In this document: positions 35,090 to 40,813 of the stretch, in pieces
How the letters are laid out: each line of letters opens with the position of its first letter
Numbering within the stretch: the first letter of the stretch is position 1
Source of the DNA: Spirosoma fluviale
Lineage (GTDB): Bacteria; Bacteroidota; Bacteroidia; Cytophagales; Cyclobacteriaceae
Assembly: GCA_945901615.1 (NCBI GenBank)
Contig: CAMDLI010000009.1
Span: 1-40,813, forward strand
Direction: 5' to 3'
Length of the DNA stretch: 40,813 nucleotides
Translations under genes and position numbers: made by a program
The notes under the pieces: generated by a model
The model's database searches: none
Told to the model about the DNA's origin: nothing
Seen by the model: the letters and a program-made list of their open reading frames with translations, nothing else

Positions 35090-36167
35090 GTTCAACCCCT
35101 TTTTTTCTTCGGCCCCAAAAGGCAGCCAGAACTGATCCTGTAATATTTTGCATGGGTCCAAACACTGCTGGAGCTAAGCCTAGCGTCGTAATTTTTCCCA
35201 TGATATTAGAAAGTCCTGAAGCTAATCCGGCATTTTGCATTCCAACCTCAATGGAAATAGTGCGGGCATCCTGTTCACTGAGTCCAATGAATCGGGCTAA
35301 TCCATATCCTAAACTATATCCCATCACATTGTGTAGAAATACGATCAAAATTAAAATAGGACCCATCGCCAAAAGGCTATCTCTTCCTGCTGCAGTAATC
35401 ACCAAAATAATCAACGCAATACCGAGCATGGAAACTAGCGGGAGAAGTTTTTCAATCCATCCCGAATTTTTACCAAGCAGCTGATGCACGAGTAAACCAG
35501 CTCCTACTGGTAACAAAATGATTTTAAAAATATCCCACATCATTTTGAGAAGGTCAATCTCAATGAATTGTCCTGCCAGTAATTTCATCAAGACAGGCAT
35601 TAAAAAGGGGGCAAGAAGGGTTGAAATGGTAGTAAGTGTCACTGATAAAGCCACATTGGCACGGGCTAAAAAAGCGATCACATTGGAGGCAGTTCCTCCA
35701 GGAGCACAGCCAACCAATATAATCCCAGCGGCAACTTCAGGCTCAAGCCCACTTAAATTTGCAAGTCCAAAGCCGACCAAGGGCATGATGGCAAATTGCG
35801 CGAAAATCCCAATAGCGACTGATTTGGGACTTTGGGCAACAGCTGCAAAATCCTTCCAACTAAGTGTAGCCCCCATCCCAAACATGATCATTTGAATCAG
35901 CGGATTAATCAATTGAGTAAGCTTAAAGCCGTTAATTTCCTGGAAATACAGCGGAAAAAACATCGCCAAGGCTACGACTGCGAATATGACAACCGAAAAA
36001 GAAAAGCCTTTCAAATGCTCATTTGCACGAAAATAAAGGCCAAGAAAAAGAAAGAAGCCAACAGCAATTAAGCCTGTTCCTACCTGAAAGCCAGCTGGAA
36101 TAGTGTAAATCAAGCCCAGCAAGAGTGCAATAGCCAGGTATAGGAAGATGGGTGAGTTAGATTTCAA
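35082..36167 (-). CDS. BASS-family (bile acid:sodium symporter-like) transporter
   Basis: This multi-pass inner-membrane carrier has about ten hydrophobic segments. Family signatures are 'GMGATLSW', 'ILVGCAPGGTASNVIAFLARANVALSVTLTT' (ends ILVGCAPGG, LSVTLTT) and 'TISIEVGMQNAGLASGL'. The family takes up organic anions with sodium; characterised members carry bile acids, pyruvate (plant BASS2) or ketopantoate (PanS). No in-frame ATG exists in the N-terminal region. The frame extends to a TTG at 36242, but that lies inside the terminator hairpin of the operon before it. I therefore prefer TTG at 36167, which begins 'MKSNSPIFLYLAIALLL' (361 residues). It follows the enolase-superfamily/RraA operon on the same strand, so uptake of a 2-oxoacid product is a reasonable guess. 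Confidence 0.85.
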   Translation of the reverse strand: MKSNSPIFLYLAIALLLGLIYTIPAGFQVGTGLIAVGFFLFLGLYFRANEHLKGFSFSVVIFAVVALAMFFPLYFQEINGFKLTQLINPLIQMIMFGMGATLSWKDFAAVAQSPKSVAIGIFAQFAIMPLVGFGLANLSGLEPEVAAGIILVGCAPGGTASNVIAFLARANVALSVTLTTISTLLAPFLMPVLMKLLAGQFIEIDLLKMMWDIFKIILLPVGAGLLVHQLLGKNSGWIEKLLPLVSMLGIALIILVITAAGRDSLLAMGPILILIVFLHNVMGYSLGYGLARFIGLSEQDARTISIEVGMQNAGLASGLSNIMGKITTLGLAPAVFGPMQNITGSVLAAFWGRRKKGVEPS

Positions 36168-36251: not shown

Positions 36252-37736
36252 TTAGCTGTAGGTTCTATCGTGGGATCGTTTTTCATTCCACTGGTCGGTA
36301 GGCGCGAAATAGCTGGAATCTGACTTATGCAAATGGGCTTTCACCACTTCCTCATTGATTTCAATTCCTAATCCCGGAGCTGTCAAAGGTACCGGTGCAT
36401 ACCCTTTATCAATCATCTTTACCCCATCTACCTTGGTAAACATGGATTCCCACCAAGGAACATCCACAGAATGGTGCTCAAGGGAAAGGAAATTTTGAGT
36501 TGCTGCCGCACAATGAACACTTGCCATAAAGGATACTGGCGTACCAGCCTGGTGCATAGCCATGGATATTCCTTTTTCCTCTGCATAATCACCGATTCTT
36601 TTGGTTTCCAAAAGACCTCCCGACGAAGCCAGGTCAGGATGGATGATATCTACCGCGTGCTCATCAATCAAGGGCTTGAAATAATTGAGGAGGTAAATAT
36701 CTTCTCCCGTTGTAGTTGGCGTTTCCAAGGCCTGCGTGATGGTTTTGTGCTGCTGAGTCATTTGCCAAGGCACCATGTCCTCTAACCATGCCAATCGATA
36801 AGGCTCCAATGCTTTACCCAACCGAATACAGTTATTCAAATCAAAATGTCCATAGTGATCAGTGGACATTGGAACATCGTAACCGACCATTTCTCGAATA
36901 TTGTGGACAATTTTAGCAAGTTCATCAAGTCCTTTTTCGGTAATCTGAATTCCAGTGAAAGGATGTGCAGTATTGGCATAGGACATGTACCCACCTGACC
37001 ACTGAGAACGATTTTCTTTCAAAATTTCGGGATTCACGATACAGCCCGGAATATCCATGATTTCACCAATAGAAACGTCCATTTTCAGCCAGGTATATCC
37101 TTGATCTTGAATGCGGTAGCGGATTCTTTCTTTTTGCTCTGCAGGATCTTTTCCCTCTGGCGTATCTGCATAGAGACGAACAGAGTCACGGTAACGTCCA
37201 CCGAGGAGCTGCCAAGCAGGTACGTTGTATGCTTTTCCACAAAGATCCCAAAGTGCCATTTCTACGCCACAAACTCCACCAGCTTGTCTGGATTGTCCTC
37301 CAAACTGACGGATAATTTTGAAGATTTTCTCCACGTTGCATGGATTTTCACCAAGAATTCTGCTTTTCAGCATCAAAGCATACCGAGGATCAGCACCATC
37401 TCTCACTTCTCCCCATCCCACAATTCCCTGGTTGGTGTCAATGCGCAAAATAGCTGTACCACCCATTACAGCTGTATGGGCATATCTTAGATCGGTAATT
37501 TTGAGATCCGATGGAGCAGAAGCTCTTTGTACAGATCGGGTAGTTTCAGCAAGCGTGTCTTCAATACCTAGTCCAGTTAAAGCTGCTAGGCTAAAACCTC
37601 CCAGTGCTGTTTTTTTCAAAAAATCTCTTCGATTGGATCCTGTTATCGGATTGTCAATTTCTGCCTGCCGCTGCTGGGCATAGGCTCTCTCCACCACTTT
37701 ATGCTCGGAGATTAGTTTTTGTAAGGTGCTTTTCAT
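36252..37736 (-). CDS. Tat-exported enolase-superfamily (mandelate racemase/muconate lactonizing-like) enzyme, copy 1
   Basis: The 494-residue enzyme abstracts a proton alpha to a carboxylate, usually to dehydrate an acid sugar. After a 34-residue leader comes a twin-arginine signal, N35-R36-R37-D-F-L-K-K and a hydrophobic stretch 'ALGGFSLAALTGLG', so it is likely exported folded. Visible active-site candidates: K218-x-D220, metal ligands D293, E319 and E345, and the dyad D368/H395 ('HPD', 'AMHQAG'). The K-x-D form leaves one lysine of the classic K-x-K, so the acid/base pair differs from mandelate racemase. An insertion of about 40 residues (228-268) is absent from copy 2. It is last in the operon, 27 nt after an RraA-like gene. 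The substrate is unknown. Confidence 0.88.
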   Translation of the reverse strand: MKSTLQKLISEHKVVERAYAQQRQAEIDNPITGSNRRDFLKKTALGGFSLAALTGLGIEDTLAETTRSVQRASAPSDLKITDLRYAHTAVMGGTAILRIDTNQGIVGWGEVRDGADPRYALMLKSRILGENPCNVEKIFKIIRQFGGQSRQAGGVCGVEMALWDLCGKAYNVPAWQLLGGRYRDSVRLYADTPEGKDPAEQKERIRYRIQDQGYTWLKMDVSIGEIMDIPGCIVNPEILKENRSQWSGGYMSYANTAHPFTGIQITEKGLDELAKIVHNIREMVGYDVPMSTDHYGHFDLNNCIRLGKALEPYRLAWLEDMVPWQMTQQHKTITQALETPTTTGEDIYLLNYFKPLIDEHAVDIIHPDLASSGGLLETKRIGDYAEEKGISMAMHQAGTPVSFMASVHCAAATQNFLSLEHHSVDVPWWESMFTKVDGVKMIDKGYAPVPLTAPGLGIEINEEVVKAHLHKSDSSYFAPTDQWNEKRSHDRTYS

Positions 37737-37763
37737 GGGTTTTGTTAGTTGATTAAATAAGGT

Positions 37764-38723
37764 TTACCAATTTCTTTCTTTAAAATAATCATCAAGTTCC
37801 GCCTTTGTCATCGGAAGTTTCCCTGGATAGTTAGCTAGCCAGTTGAGAAAATCTTTTTTGATGTCCTCAGTCCATTCCGAATCAATCTGTCCTGCAAGGT
37901 ATTTTTTTTCTCTAAGTCTCTGATGACCAAATTGATCACGAAGGCCGGTAACCTCTGAAGTAATGACCAAATCCTCCACCAGGTGCGCTGGAATAAAAAT
38001 GATACCGTACTTTTTAGCCAATACTACATCTCCTGGAAGGACCGTAGCACGGCCAATTCGGATAGGTGCATTGATAGAGGTGAGCATCATTTCTCGGATA
38101 TAGGATGGGTCTTGTCCTTTAATCCAGGCATTAAAGCCTTGTATTTCAGAAAGGCCCTCTTGGTCTCTTACCGATCCATAAAAAATAACTCCTCGCTTTG
38201 ATCTCGTGTAGATTGAATTGCCCAAGTTATCGCCAATCAAGGTCCCATCAGCCATTTTACCATAGCTATCCGCTACATAAACATCGCCATTGGTCAGCAC
38301 ATCAATAGGCCATGAATTGGTGCCTCCTTTGGGAGATCTGCCTTCTTTTTCCACTCCTGTAGTTTTGATAAATTTATCAAAATCAGGTCTCAGAGGCATG
38401 TATTGAGCAGTAACTACCCTTCCAGTCATTACTGAATCGGGCCAGATAATTTGCCAATCCCCTTCGTATTGATTGTTGTAGCCCTTATTTCGTAGTACTC
38501 CCCAAGCTTCTTCAATCGAGATACTCTTGAGGCGCTCCAAAATTTGATCAGAAACTTTAGGTCTTCCATCTGGGAATCGCTCACCAGTCCATTCTGAGGT
38601 CAGTAAACGGATTTGGTCCGGTGTGGCTCCTACATGCTGTGCAATTCCCACAGTGGAAAGCATCCCAAAACCAAGAATTAGGAAGCAAATGCGTTTTAAA
38701 TTGATTTTTAAATAGTTATACAT
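37764..38723 (-). CDS. Exported RraA-like aldolase/demethylmenaquinone-methyltransferase-fold protein, copy 1
   Basis: The 319-residue protein has a Sec-type signal peptide (about 1-29, ending VGIAQ) and an RraA fold. The family includes RraA itself (RNase E inhibitor) and class II pyruvate aldolases such as HMG/CHA aldolase, in which an R-D pair binds substrate and metal. Here that site reads 'GVIFYGSVRD' (R186/D187), after 'LIGDNLGNS'. Extra N- and C-terminal segments (about 30-90 and 250-319, with 'FGHQRLREKKYLAGQID') are shared with copy 2. It lies between two enolase-superfamily genes (gaps 27 and 17 nt). Splitting a 2-keto-3-deoxy acid made by the neighbour is inferred, not shown. Confidence 0.85.
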   Translation of the reverse strand: MYNYLKINLKRICFLILGFGMLSTVGIAQHVGATPDQIRLLTSEWTGERFPDGRPKVSDQILERLKSISIEEAWGVLRNKGYNNQYEGDWQIIWPDSVMTGRVVTAQYMPLRPDFDKFIKTTGVEKEGRSPKGGTNSWPIDVLTNGDVYVADSYGKMADGTLIGDNLGNSIYTRSKRGVIFYGSVRDQEGLSEIQGFNAWIKGQDPSYIREMMLTSINAPIRIGRATVLPGDVVLAKKYGIIFIPAHLVEDLVITSEVTGLRDQFGHQRLREKKYLAGQIDSEWTEDIKKDFLNWLANYPGKLPMTKAELDDYFKERNW

Positions 38724-38740
38724 AGTAGATTGGGTTTTGA

Positions 38741-40015
38741 TTATTCAAAAAATGGAACGCCTTTAACGGCATATTTTTTCATTCCTTCCTCATTGATTTC
38801 CACACCGATCCCTGGCTTTTCAGATAGGGTAATGAAACTGTTTTGAGTTCGAGGACCATCATAGGTCACGATATCCTGCCAAAGCTGATCTGTATCCATG
38901 TAGATTTGCCATTCCATAATTTGGAAATTAGGCACTGAAGCACAGACATGACAAGCTGCCATGGCTCCAAGAAATGAGGCAACCATGTGTGGTGAAAAAG
39001 GCACGTAATACAGGTTGGCAAGGTTGGCTATACGTTGAGCTTCTCCCAATCCACCTGCTTTTTGAATGTCTGGCATAATGATATCGACTGCATTTTCAGA
39101 GAGTAGCCTTGTAAAGCCATAGGCGAGATATACATTCTCACCTGTACAGATTGGGGTGGAGGTCTCCTGGGATATTTTCTTATACACTTCGATATTGTCT
39201 GCAGGAACAGGCTCTTCTAGCCACATGAGATTCAAATCCTCATACATTTTGGCCATCTTCAAACCTGTGACCGCATCGTATCGCCCATGCATATCTACGC
39301 AAATATCTACATTTGGCCCTACCTCCTGGCGTACTGCCGCAATGGCATTGTACATGCGATCAATTTCCATTGGATTAGCGGTCCAATTGAACCGATCGTA
39401 TTTGTTTGGATCGCGCGCATCATCCACATCAAATTTGACTGCATTGTAGCCTCGATTAACAGCATTTCGAGCAGCCAGTGCATAATCAGCGGGTGTCGGA
39501 TTAGTTGAGGTGTAAAGGGCAGTATCGCAATAAACTCGGATTTTATCTCTGAATTTGCCCCCCAATAATTGGTAAACAGGCACTCCAAAAACTTTCCCTG
39601 TTAAATCCCAGAGAGCTGTTTCTATAGCTGTAAGCACGGCAACAAACACCCCACTCTGCGCTCCTCCAAAAAAAGCTGCTTTTCTAAGTTGCTCCGCTAT
39701 TCTATTTGGGTTGAGCGGGCTTTGCCCTTTAATTTGTTCTCCAAGCCTTTTGACTAGGTGGTAGGTACCCTGAATCGCGTCTACAGCTTCTCCACAACCC
39801 CAAACATCCTGGTTGGTATACACTTTCACGTATACAGCTCCTCGGACGTACCCACATTTTACATCCGTTATTTTCAAATCGGAGGGATTTGATGCGGAGG
39901 GAGTTCTTTCCACGGCAGCCTCAAGGCCTTGACCGAAGGTGCTGAAAAAGCCAGCTCCAGCCAATCCAAGTCCTTTCGCAAAAAAGGCTCTTCTACTTTC
40001 TTTTAATTTATCCAT
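38741..40015 (-). CDS. Tat-exported enolase-superfamily (mandelate racemase-like) enzyme, copy 2
   Basis: The 424-residue member of the mandelate racemase/muconate lactonizing superfamily carries a twin-arginine-like start, S7-R8-R9-A-F-F-A-K, then 'GLGLAGAGFFSTFG'. Active-site candidates are K194-x-D196, metal ligands D241, E267 and E293, and D316/H343 ('MPD', 'SPHM'). The 'ETALWDLTGKVFGVPVYQLLGG' box is typical of acid-sugar dehydratases such as galactonate dehydratase. It is clearly a diverged paralogue of copy 1: both have 'SDLKITD' at the start of the mature domain and 'PGxGxEINEE' near the end. It sits 18 nt after the window-edge RraA-like gene and 17 nt before the other RraA-like gene. 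Confidence 0.9.
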   Translation of the reverse strand: MDKLKESRRAFFAKGLGLAGAGFFSTFGQGLEAAVERTPSASNPSDLKITDVKCGYVRGAVYVKVYTNQDVWGCGEAVDAIQGTYHLVKRLGEQIKGQSPLNPNRIAEQLRKAAFFGGAQSGVFVAVLTAIETALWDLTGKVFGVPVYQLLGGKFRDKIRVYCDTALYTSTNPTPADYALAARNAVNRGYNAVKFDVDDARDPNKYDRFNWTANPMEIDRMYNAIAAVRQEVGPNVDICVDMHGRYDAVTGLKMAKMYEDLNLMWLEEPVPADNIEVYKKISQETSTPICTGENVYLAYGFTRLLSENAVDIIMPDIQKAGGLGEAQRIANLANLYYVPFSPHMVASFLGAMAACHVCASVPNFQIMEWQIYMDTDQLWQDIVTYDGPRTQNSFITLSEKPGIGVEINEEGMKKYAVKGVPFFE

Positions 40016-40033
40016 TTCTATTTTTGGTTGATT

Positions 40034-40813
40034 TTACCAAGTACGATTTTTAAGGAGTTCCTGAATTTGTGACTTTGGAACTGGAAGTTCATCAATGTGT
40101 GCATTTAGCCATTGCGAAAAATCGCGTTCGATATCATCCGACCATCTTGTATCAATTTGACCTGCCGTATATTTCCCCTCTCTCAATCGCTCATGACCAA
40201 ACATATCTCGCAGTCTGACGATTTCCGAGGTTACAACTACCTTTTCTGCCAAGTGTGCAGGGATAAAGGAAACTCCCCCATCTCTTCCCAAGACCACATC
40301 ACCTGCCATCACGGTAGCTTGTTTGATCCGAGTGGGCTGGTTGATTCCAACCAACATGGTATTCAGGTTTCCTGGTTGGTTGTGATGGGAAGGGTGATAG
40401 GAACTGAAGTAAGAAGTGAATCCTCCCATTTCTTTTAAACCGGCGATATCCCGAATGGCACCATGATAGACAATGCCGTTACCTGTTTTAGCAAAAATGG
40501 CATTTCCAACATTGTCTCCAATAGTAGGACCATTGATTTGGATCCCAAACTGGTCAGCGACATAGACATCTTTGGAAACTAAAAGATCTACTGGCCAGGA
40601 GTTTTGGCCTCGCTTACCTGCTTTTTTACCACGTTCATCAATTGCATCATGGATATCTGGACGACCGGGGATAAAGGTTGCTGTAACTGCCCTTCCAATC
40701 AAAATACTATCCGGATTGATCACTTCCCACCCGTCGGTATATTGATAGAGGTAACCCGCATTTTTCATGACAGCCCATGCTTCATCGTGCGTAACTAGAC
40801 GCATTCTGGTAAG
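40034..40813 (-). CDS. RraA-like aldolase-family protein, copy 2 (5' end beyond window)
   Basis: About 260 residues are visible. The frame stays open to the window edge (codons for L-T-R precede the first ATG at 40804). That ATG aligns with an internal part of copy 1 ('ERLKSISIEEAW' against 'TRMRLVTHDEAW'), so it is not the true start and any signal peptide is off the window. The core matches copy 1: 'GDNVGNAIFAKTGNGIVYHGAIRD' with the R-D pair, and the C-terminal 'MFGHERLREGKYTAGQID' and 'DIERDFSQWLN'. It is the most upstream visible gene of the operon. Confidence 0.88.
   Translation of the reverse strand, partial: LTRMRLVTHDEAWAVMKNAGYLYQYTDGWEVINPDSILIGRAVTATFIPGRPDIHDAIDERGKKAGKRGQNSWPVDLLVSKDVYVADQFGIQINGPTIGDNVGNAIFAKTGNGIVYHGAIRDIAGLKEMGGFTSYFSSYHPSHHNQPGNLNTMLVGINQPTRIKQATVMAGDVVLGRDGGVSFIPAHLAEKVVVTSEIVRLRDMFGHERLREGKYTAGQIDTRWSDDIERDFSQWLNAHIDELPVPKSQIQELLKNRTW

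Follow-up and report, generated by a model that had tools for sequence, protein, structure and literature searches.

We analyzed a gene cluster at the end of contig CAMDLI010000009.1 of Spirosoma fluviale (assembly GCA_945901615.1), in which two RraA-fold proteins alternate with two enolase-superfamily dehydratase-like proteins. The window, that is, the whole stretch of 40,813 nucleotides (nt) that was analyzed, is the entire contig (C9), which cuts off the 5' end of the first gene and all upstream DNA, and it belongs to a genome of 2.4 Mb in 181 contigs that is 75% complete. Four open reading frames (ORFs) lie on the minus strand, in the order of transcription RraA_A, DH_A, RraA_B, and DH_B. 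RraA_A (40804-40034, minus strand, with its frame open up to 40813, where the contig ends) belongs to the RraA fold (PF03737). DH_A (40015-38741, minus strand; 424 amino acids) is a dehydratase-like protein of the mandelate racemase/muconate lactonizing enzyme (MR/MLE) group of the enolase superfamily; it retains the metal-ligand columns and has D-M-H as its acid/base motif. RraA_B (38723-37764, minus strand; 319 amino acids) is an RraA-fold protein with a Sec-type hydrophobic N-terminus, and DH_B (37736-36252, minus strand; 494 amino acids) is enolase-superfamily dehydratase-like, with a D-H-x-G-H signature and the appearance of a separate subfamily. An earlier annotation made from the letters of the window (the sequence-only reading) had described this alternating order, with gaps of 18, 17, and 27 nt; all four ORFs were confirmed in place with Pfam assignments above the curated cut-offs, and the recomputed spacings were identical. 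Export signals, the transporter, and the upstream genes of relatives had not been covered by it.

A terminator-like hairpin of the Rho-independent type (36240-36209, minus strand), with a 12-pair stem and a T-rich tail, follows DH_B. The 71-nt stretch around it folds at -26.4 kcal/mol (z -6.2 against shuffles), and the corresponding gap also forms a hairpin in 14 related loci, as judged there from minimum-energy folds, the shuffle control being confined to the window. All 15 folded sequences form a hairpin, and they differ in sequence among species; the related locus L054 differs from the window in both bases of 1 stem pair. The hairpin was originally taken as the end of the unit, and as a structure it stands, but a co-directional gene for a BASS/SBF-family transporter follows directly (36167-35082, minus strand; ORF open to 36242, with a likely TTG start near 36167 by comparison with relatives) and holds the same position in relatives, so that the unit may continue. 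The hairpin may stop most transcripts while letting some through into BASS. The BASS protein matched PF01758 at 153.9 bits (cut-off 24.3) and stayed below the cut-offs of TIGR00841 (240.7 against 326.3) and PanS (219.6 against 400). It is 93% identical to its counterparts in 2 close relatives and 54% identical to that of L039, with which the enzymes share 78-86%, and this suggests fast divergence or transporter replacement in the freshwater lineage.

Related loci (numbered L, with their genomes numbered G) were compared by using longest ORFs as gene calls and the best phmmer score to 1 seed protein as label. L059-L138 are the best 80 of at least 313 confirmed matches, chosen for an RraA relative and ranked by similarity to RraA_B, so that B-type features are over-represented, and the locus set as a whole includes near-copies and repeated genomes (e.g., L043 and L063). 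The alternating order, which the sequence-only reading had proposed to look for in other Bacteroidota, was found in other genomes, and the full operon is present in cultured Algoriphagus iocasae (L063) and Algoriphagus aestuarii (L062). The 4 enzyme genes are under strong purifying selection, with dN/dS of 0.013-0.078 between the window and 2 close relatives, L055 and L054. Because the 4-gene order recurs in other genomes and dN/dS is low, the arrangement is no chance product.

In L042, L043, L048, L049, and L056, the order is an extracytoplasmic function (ECF) sigma factor, FecR, SusC, a SusD-like lipoprotein, RraA_A, DH_A, RraA_B, DH_B, and BASS, and the same series is seen from FecR onwards in L039, L044, and L054. 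The SusD-like Pfam and SusC NCBIfam models matched in L054, and the neighbor families were also checked in L056. SusC/SusD genes lie directly 5' of RraA_A in 9 of the 14 loci of the window's genus and are present in 37 of the 80 named loci. No upstream SusD was found in the other 5 genus loci (L055, L059, L060, L061, and L146); in 4 of these (L055, L059, L060, and L061), which are of the streamlined freshwater kind and the nearest relatives of the window, a divergent TypA/BipA gene adjoins the operon. The low dN/dS against L055 indicates that its enzymes have been kept as working proteins despite the lack of upstream SusC/SusD. We do not claim the pair for the window itself, since its genome, at 75% completeness, has no close SusD match (best 31%), whereas the near relative G002 (L054) has a SusC/SusD pair. 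The genus-level operons hold no gene besides the 4 enzymes between SusD and BASS. Polysaccharide-degrading enzymes were found neither in the window's unit nor in the genus-level operons, and glycoside hydrolases of families GH2/GH3 occurred only near some distant copies.

Both dehydratase-like proteins carry a twin-arginine translocation (Tat) type signal motif in translation, SRRAFFAK in DH_A (39974..39997, minus strand) and SNRRDFLKK in DH_B (37611..37637, minus strand). Near the N-terminus, an RRxF/L motif of this type was present in all 50 full-length DH_A proteins and in 97 of 100 DH_B proteins, and a second, stricter pattern was matched by 50/50 DH_A and 100/105 DH_B sequences. Among full-length relatives, a hydrophobic N-terminal stretch was identified in 122 of 129 RraA_B and 40 of 47 RraA_A proteins. 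On these calls, made by sequence pattern and hydropathy and not by a trained predictor, the 4 enzymes are probably exported.

PF03737 was matched by RraA_A and RraA_B at 61.9 and 48.4 bits (cut-off 24.5), and each protein carries a D-X20-R-D motif in translation (40516-40448 in RraA_A and 38231-38163 in RraA_B, both on the minus strand), as do 48 of 48 RraA_A and 106 of 133 RraA_B relatives. D-X20-R-D is a motif of RraA-fold class II pyruvate aldolases. The motif thus suggests that both are candidate RraA-fold class II pyruvate aldolases. In the characterized 4-hydroxy-4-methyl-2-oxoglutarate/4-carboxy-4-hydroxy-2-oxoadipate (HMG/CHA) aldolase of Pseudomonas putida, Arg-123 stabilizes the enolate of pyruvate and the metal is bound by Asp-124, and its authors state that most homologues carry 1 of 2 such motifs and are likely class II pyruvate aldolases (PMC5065237). 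RraA_A and RraA_B are 46-51% identical to each other and 23-27% identical to rhizobial RraA. In a tree of 84 representatives below 80% identity and 6 others, built with a quick method, RraA_A formed 1 clade at a support of 100, with 13 of its 14 members adjoining DH_A, and the label "next to DH_A" required 2 changes against a mean of 12.3 after shuffling, none of 500 shuffles being as low. A candidate marker for separating RraA_A from RraA_B, HPSHHN, was dropped, being present in only 27 of 49 RraA_A. In RraA_B of L098, L104, L106, L109, L110, L111, L113, L114, L121, and L123, all from marine Flavobacteriaceae, the first Asp of D-X20-R-D (GDN in most others) is replaced by Ser (GSN) in an otherwise conserved protein.

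DH_A and DH_B both match PF02746 and PF13378 above the curated cut-offs, and residues K218, D220, D293, E319, E345, H395, and E420 (DH_B numbering) are invariant in a 46-sequence alignment of both groups; in a separate sample, 1 of 18 DH_B deviates in the D220 column. The two proteins thus have what defines the MR/MLE subgroup, namely both Pfam domains, the metal ligands Asp, Glu, and Glu, and the catalytic Lys and His. They differ at the third barrel strand, the end of which carries an Asp-x-His acid/base motif in galactonate-dehydratase-type enzymes. DH_A has this motif, as D-M/A-H-G-R in 47 of 50 sequences, and DH_B does not; its D-H-x-G-H, found in 99 of 100 DH_B and common to the rhizobial relative DHx3, suggests that DH_B forms a catalytic subfamily of its own, in which a histidine has changed position. 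The L-talarate/galactarate dehydratase model gave 122 bits for DH_A and 97 bits for DH_B, below its cut-off of 500, and the glucarate dehydratase model was weak (43.5 and 20 bits). The nearest solved relative of DH_A is 2qq6, named only "mandelate racemase/muconate lactonizing enzyme-like".

DH_A and DH_B are 32-35% identical to each other, in comparison with 42% between DH_A and Microvirga DHx1 and 44.5-45.8% between DH_B and rhizobial DHx3. In a dehydratase tree of 50 sequences, the 14 DH_A formed 1 clade (support 100/100) and the 18 DH_B another (82/80), and rhizobial DHx3 (100/99) and DHx4 (98/96) grouped with DH_B to the exclusion of DH_A. The position of Microvirga DHx1 beside DH_A was not settled. 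A constrained clade of DH_A plus DH_B was rejected (p-AU, approximately unbiased test, 3.1e-5), with long branches in play; the tree flags long branches that meet, including Microvirga DHx1 (Mo_DHx1) with DH_A and DHx4 with DH_B. The sequence-only reading had regarded both enzyme types as diverged paralogues, which holds for the RraA proteins and fails for the dehydratases: only the RraA proteins are close paralogues.

We counted how often the 2 enzyme types occur together. In a phylum-wide sample, 24 of 395 genomes matched at E <= 1e-30, and in a set of nearer relatives, RraA relatives were identified in 45 of 145 genomes, the window's own being included in both counts. Scoring in the phylum sample was limited to 5 candidates per genome, so copies may be missed. 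Recounted by match, the 23 phylum-sample genomes besides the window's hold 35 RraA genes, of which 12 are type A and 23 type B; 2 pieces were not counted, one of 318 nt in G064 and the other the leading portion of a gene that is split in G193. All 12 RraA_A genes had DH_A no more than 250 nt away. Of 23 RraA_B genes, 13 lay within 400 nt of DH_B and 2 more within 2.6 kb, with 8 lacking such a dehydratase within 2.6 kb and none near DH_A. By genome, 3 had only the A pair, 11 only the B pair, and 7 both at different places, and the two were together in only 2, G357 and G064, the latter with a truncated B copy. In G064, which belongs to the window's genus, RraA_B is represented only by the short piece (G064:C39:338092-338409), and its neighbors are an intact A pair and a DH_B match of reduced length. 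When all loci are counted with their near-copies, RraA_A adjoins DH_A in 46 of 49 and RraA_B adjoins DH_B in 90 of 133. Further, the A pair with SusC/SusD and BASS occurs without B at that place in L160, and the B pair with SusC/SusD and BASS occurs without A there in L040, L075, and L100. RraA_A with DH_A and RraA_B with DH_B behave as 2 independent modules, and these appear to have joined in the lineage of the window and in certain other lineages. As each pair occurs without the other, 2 substrates are favored over 2 obligatory steps on 1 substrate. The A and B pairs are separated in L065 (6031-9956), from a Prolixibacteraceae metagenome-assembled genome, by genes for a DHDPS-family protein, an FGGY kinase, a class II fructose-bisphosphate-aldolase-family protein, and a HAD hydrolase.

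Neighboring genes of distant relatives bear on the likely chemistry. In L138, L140, L142, L143, and L158, RraA and BASS occur with amidohydrolases and a DgaE-like pyridoxal phosphate (PLP) dependent ammonia-lyase, with no DH gene; a RidA-like gene is also present in L138, L140, L142, and L158 but not in L143. The DgaE-like label rests on a TIGR01437 score of 196.7, below the cut-off of 385.3. DgaE converts glucosaminate phosphate to a 2-keto-3-deoxy acid; a nonhomologous enzyme therefore seems to yield a product of the kind expected from the dehydratases. The RraA proteins of these loci sit at 3 places of the RraA tree. A Tat-type motif was identified in 5 of 7 DgaE-like members; among 6 RidA-like members, 1 had a Tat-type motif, 3 had a hydrophobic start, and 2 had neither. 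An SMP-30 lactonase-like gene is present in L142 and L143 and a glucose/sorbosone dehydrogenase-like gene in L142, and the amidohydrolase of L143 matched PRK09237 above the cut-off (457.9 against 371). These loci look like an exported, periplasmic route of amino-sugar oxidation.

In L155, an SMP-30 lactonase, a pyrroloquinoline quinone (PQQ) dehydrogenase, DH_B, BASS, a further DH_B, RraA_B, and 2 UxuA-like genes are found together, and a PQQ dehydrogenase is also found near RraA in L102, L104, L111, L121, L153, L161, L171, and L172. The PQQ-dehydrogenase-, SMP-30-lactonase-, and UxuA-like neighbors are probably exported. On Rhizobiales plasmids of Microvirga and Rhizobium (L179, L180, and L182), RraA and 4 MR/MLE genes flank a sugar ATP-binding cassette (ABC) importer and a GntR regulator, one of these loci being similar but cut at one end; the MR/MLE genes include DH_B-like and, in Microvirga, DH_A-like members, and the proteins start without signal sequences. 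Further, araD (L-arabinonate dehydratase) lies beside or near RraA on 4 alphaproteobacterial plasmids, from Rhizobium, Terrarubrum, Paracoccus, and Sulfitobacter. A small DUF4440 gene (cluster N0), mostly with a hydrophobic or lipoprotein-like start, lies within 6 genes of RraA in 18 loci. Naming a single substrate was given up, the clues (GH2/GH3, AGE epimerase, UxuA-like genes, PQQ dehydrogenase, and SMP-30 lactonase) varying between loci.

We propose, with a probability of about 0.55, that the window holds an operon for breaking down sugar acids outside the cytoplasm, in which 2 independently inherited enzyme pairs feed the BASS transporter. We infer that DH_A and DH_B, exported by the Tat system, would each dehydrate their own acid sugar to a 2-keto-3-deoxy acid, which the neighboring RraA_A or RraA_B would use in the same compartment, most likely by cleaving it in a metal-dependent retro-aldol reaction that gives pyruvate and an aldehyde. 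BASS would then carry the 2-oxo-acid product over the inner membrane. In many relatives, the substrate would be admitted through the outer membrane by the SusC/SusD pair associated with the ECF sigma factor and FecR, an entry apparently absent from most of the window's streamlined freshwater lineage. The sequence-only reading had suggested a short sugar-acid pathway from the linked dehydratase and RraA pair; the linkage was upheld across Bacteroidota, and the sugar-acid route is plausible.

A wider reading, which we put forward tentatively and with the odds somewhat against it, is that whole sugar-acid pathways run outside the inner membrane in Bacteroidota, through PQQ-dependent oxidation, lactone opening, dehydration or deamination that gives a 2-keto-3-deoxy acid, and RraA retro-aldol cleavage, with BASS importing pyruvate in place of sugar, RraA as the fixed core, the feeder enzyme exchangeable, and DH_B a subfamily of its own. 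The loci suggest as exchangeable feeders the enolase-type dehydratases of 2 subfamilies, UxuA-like enzymes, or the PLP ammonia-lyase.

Several observations weigh against the proposed route through dehydratase, RraA aldolase, and BASS. RraA_B lacks an adjacent DH_B in 43 of 133 cases (none in 38, and 5 at a contig edge), and exact D-X20-R-D is missing in 27 of 133 RraA_B. The LigK/HMG-CHA aldolase equivalog TIGR02798 (304.5 bits) was not reached by RraA_A or RraA_B (49.5 and 31.9), nor the galactonate dehydratase equivalog of NCBIfam, PRK14017 (311 bits), by DH_A (243.3) or DH_B (187.4). In L077, DgaE-like genes occur together with DH_B, and the two feeders are therefore not strict alternatives. 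To these points are added the activity of the one characterized Bacteroidota relative and the kinase and aldolase genes that would allow uptake of the uncleaved acid, both taken up below with the alternatives they favor.

The alternative that survives best, although we think it unlikely, is that only dehydration is periplasmic: BASS would import the intact 2-keto-3-deoxy acid, cytosolic 2-keto-3-deoxygluconate (KDG) kinase and 2-keto-3-deoxy-6-phosphogluconate (KDPG) aldolase would finish the route, and RraA would play a secondary part, for example in dehydration, decarboxylation, or 2-oxo-acid clean-up. Genes for the kinase and the aldolase do follow BASS in L104, L106, and L113, and L109 and L110 have them near RraA. 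The RraA_B proteins of these 5 loci carry Ser in place of the first Asp of D-X20-R-D, as though the cytosol had taken over cleavage; the loci belong to 1 clade, however, and perhaps reflect 1 event. Within the genus, relatives of the kinase occur in 69 of 72 genomes and relatives of the aldolase in 70 of 72, which would allow uptake of an uncleaved acid. These genes are found both with and without the module and do not track it, and being nearly universal there, they proved uninformative as a discriminator within the genus. Neither gene was found in the window's own genome at its 75% completeness. Proximity to RraA was seen for the KDG kinase cluster in only 9 loci and for that of the aldolase in 5, all outside the window's genus. 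Loci that have the DgaE-like gene and no dehydratase still retain RraA.

It is improbable, in our estimate, that the substrates are aldaric or oxidized uronic acids and that RraA removes water and CO2 from a 2-keto-3-deoxy-hexarate to yield alpha-ketoglutarate semialdehyde. The only Bacteroidota RraA-family enzyme with biochemistry found in the literature searched, FlDet of Flavobacterium sp. UMI-01, performs just this reaction, being described as a 2-keto-3-deoxy-glucarate dehydratase/decarboxylase and not as an aldolase (PMC8563752). It resembles the window's proteins as a Bacteroidota member of the family that acts on a 2-keto-3-deoxy sugar acid, and it differs from them in being not exported (237 residues, with a purified form starting at Met), in its alginate context, and in that the available part of the article mentions no enolase-superfamily partner (PMC8563752). 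A Paracoccus plasmid also has RraA followed by genes annotated as aldehyde dehydrogenase (NADP+) and 5-dehydro-4-deoxyglucarate dehydratase, and the L-talarate/galactarate dehydratase model does match DH_A and DH_B, though below its cut-off. The match to the glucarate dehydratase model, by comparison, is only weak, and the genus-level operons carry no semialdehyde dehydrogenase, with no other gene between SusD and BASS.

That one dehydratase and RraA pair was tandemly duplicated and its copies then specialized, as the sequence-only reading held, now has very little chance: the same order in both halves and the paralogy of the 2 RraA proteins are in its favor, but the DH_A plus DH_B clade was rejected, rhizobial DHx3 and DHx4 group with DH_B, the acid/base signatures differ, and the pairs share a place in only 2 of 23 genomes, so that, of what the proposed trees were to show, the cohesion of each pair held and a common duplication of the dehydratases did not. 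Equally hard to credit is that RraA proteins acting as RNase E regulators and MR/MLE proteins acting as racemases or cycloisomerases are linked without a shared pathway, a view that draws on family names alone, many RraA proteins being annotated "ribonuclease activity regulator", and that sits poorly with RraA proteins mostly having hydrophobic N-termini and the aldolase motif and with pairs that are stable over the phylum.

The proposed extracytoplasmic operon shares features with several known systems. Nonphosphorylative Entner-Doudoroff-type routes follow the same inferred 2-step logic, and RraA lies beside or near araD on the 4 plasmids described above. The dehydratases there are annotated AraD, which we take to be IlvD-type, whereas those of the window are of the enolase superfamily, look exported, and are accompanied by BASS and, in relatives, by SusC/SusD; the RraA near araD in Rhizobium NLR16a has no signal, unlike the exported-looking enzymes of the window. 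DH_A resembles the D-galactonate dehydratase group in its catalytic columns and D-x-H motif but misses the group's cut-off and has a Tat-type signal, and DH_B carries D-H-x-G-H instead. With the polysaccharide utilization loci of Bacteroidota, 9 of 14 genus loci share SusC/SusD, with an ECF sigma factor and FecR ahead where the stretch reaches, yet the genus operons lack a glycoside hydrolase or lyase and their predicted cargo is acid sugars leading to 2-oxo acids. The HMG/CHA aldolase of P. putida has the RraA family and the catalytic Arg-Asp pair in common with the window's RraA proteins (PMC5065237), which differ in looking exported, in an N-terminal extension, in missing the LigK/HMG-CHA cut-off, and in a context of sugar acids and not of aromatic degradation.

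Other mentions from the phylum are more distant. A Dyadobacter RraA-family protein is listed among possible benzoate genes (PMC12584681), and uronate loci with a TRAP transporter are described in Algoriphagus marincola HL-49, with RraA not named in the main text (PMC5507952). No description of operons that combine exported RraA with an enolase-superfamily dehydratase was found in the literature searched, a weak absence given that most subscription journals lay outside the search.

Sugar-acid catabolism is usually drawn as cytosolic and fed by sugar or sugar-acid importers. The cluster is of more interest than an ordinary operon by virtue of its predicted export and seemingly exchangeable feeder enzymes; it is not categorically new, because every enzyme family is already known. 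The 2 clean enzyme pairs lend themselves to substrate screening, and DH_B offers an enolase subfamily with an unusual histidine arrangement. If the proposed reading is true, release of 2-oxo acids by exported enzymes in the periplasm would change the cargo that crosses the inner membrane and could keep reactive aldehydes from the cytosol. It would also provide a function for a Bacteroidota-wide RraA family named after an RNase regulator, and it would represent an undescribed manner of feeding on acid sugars.

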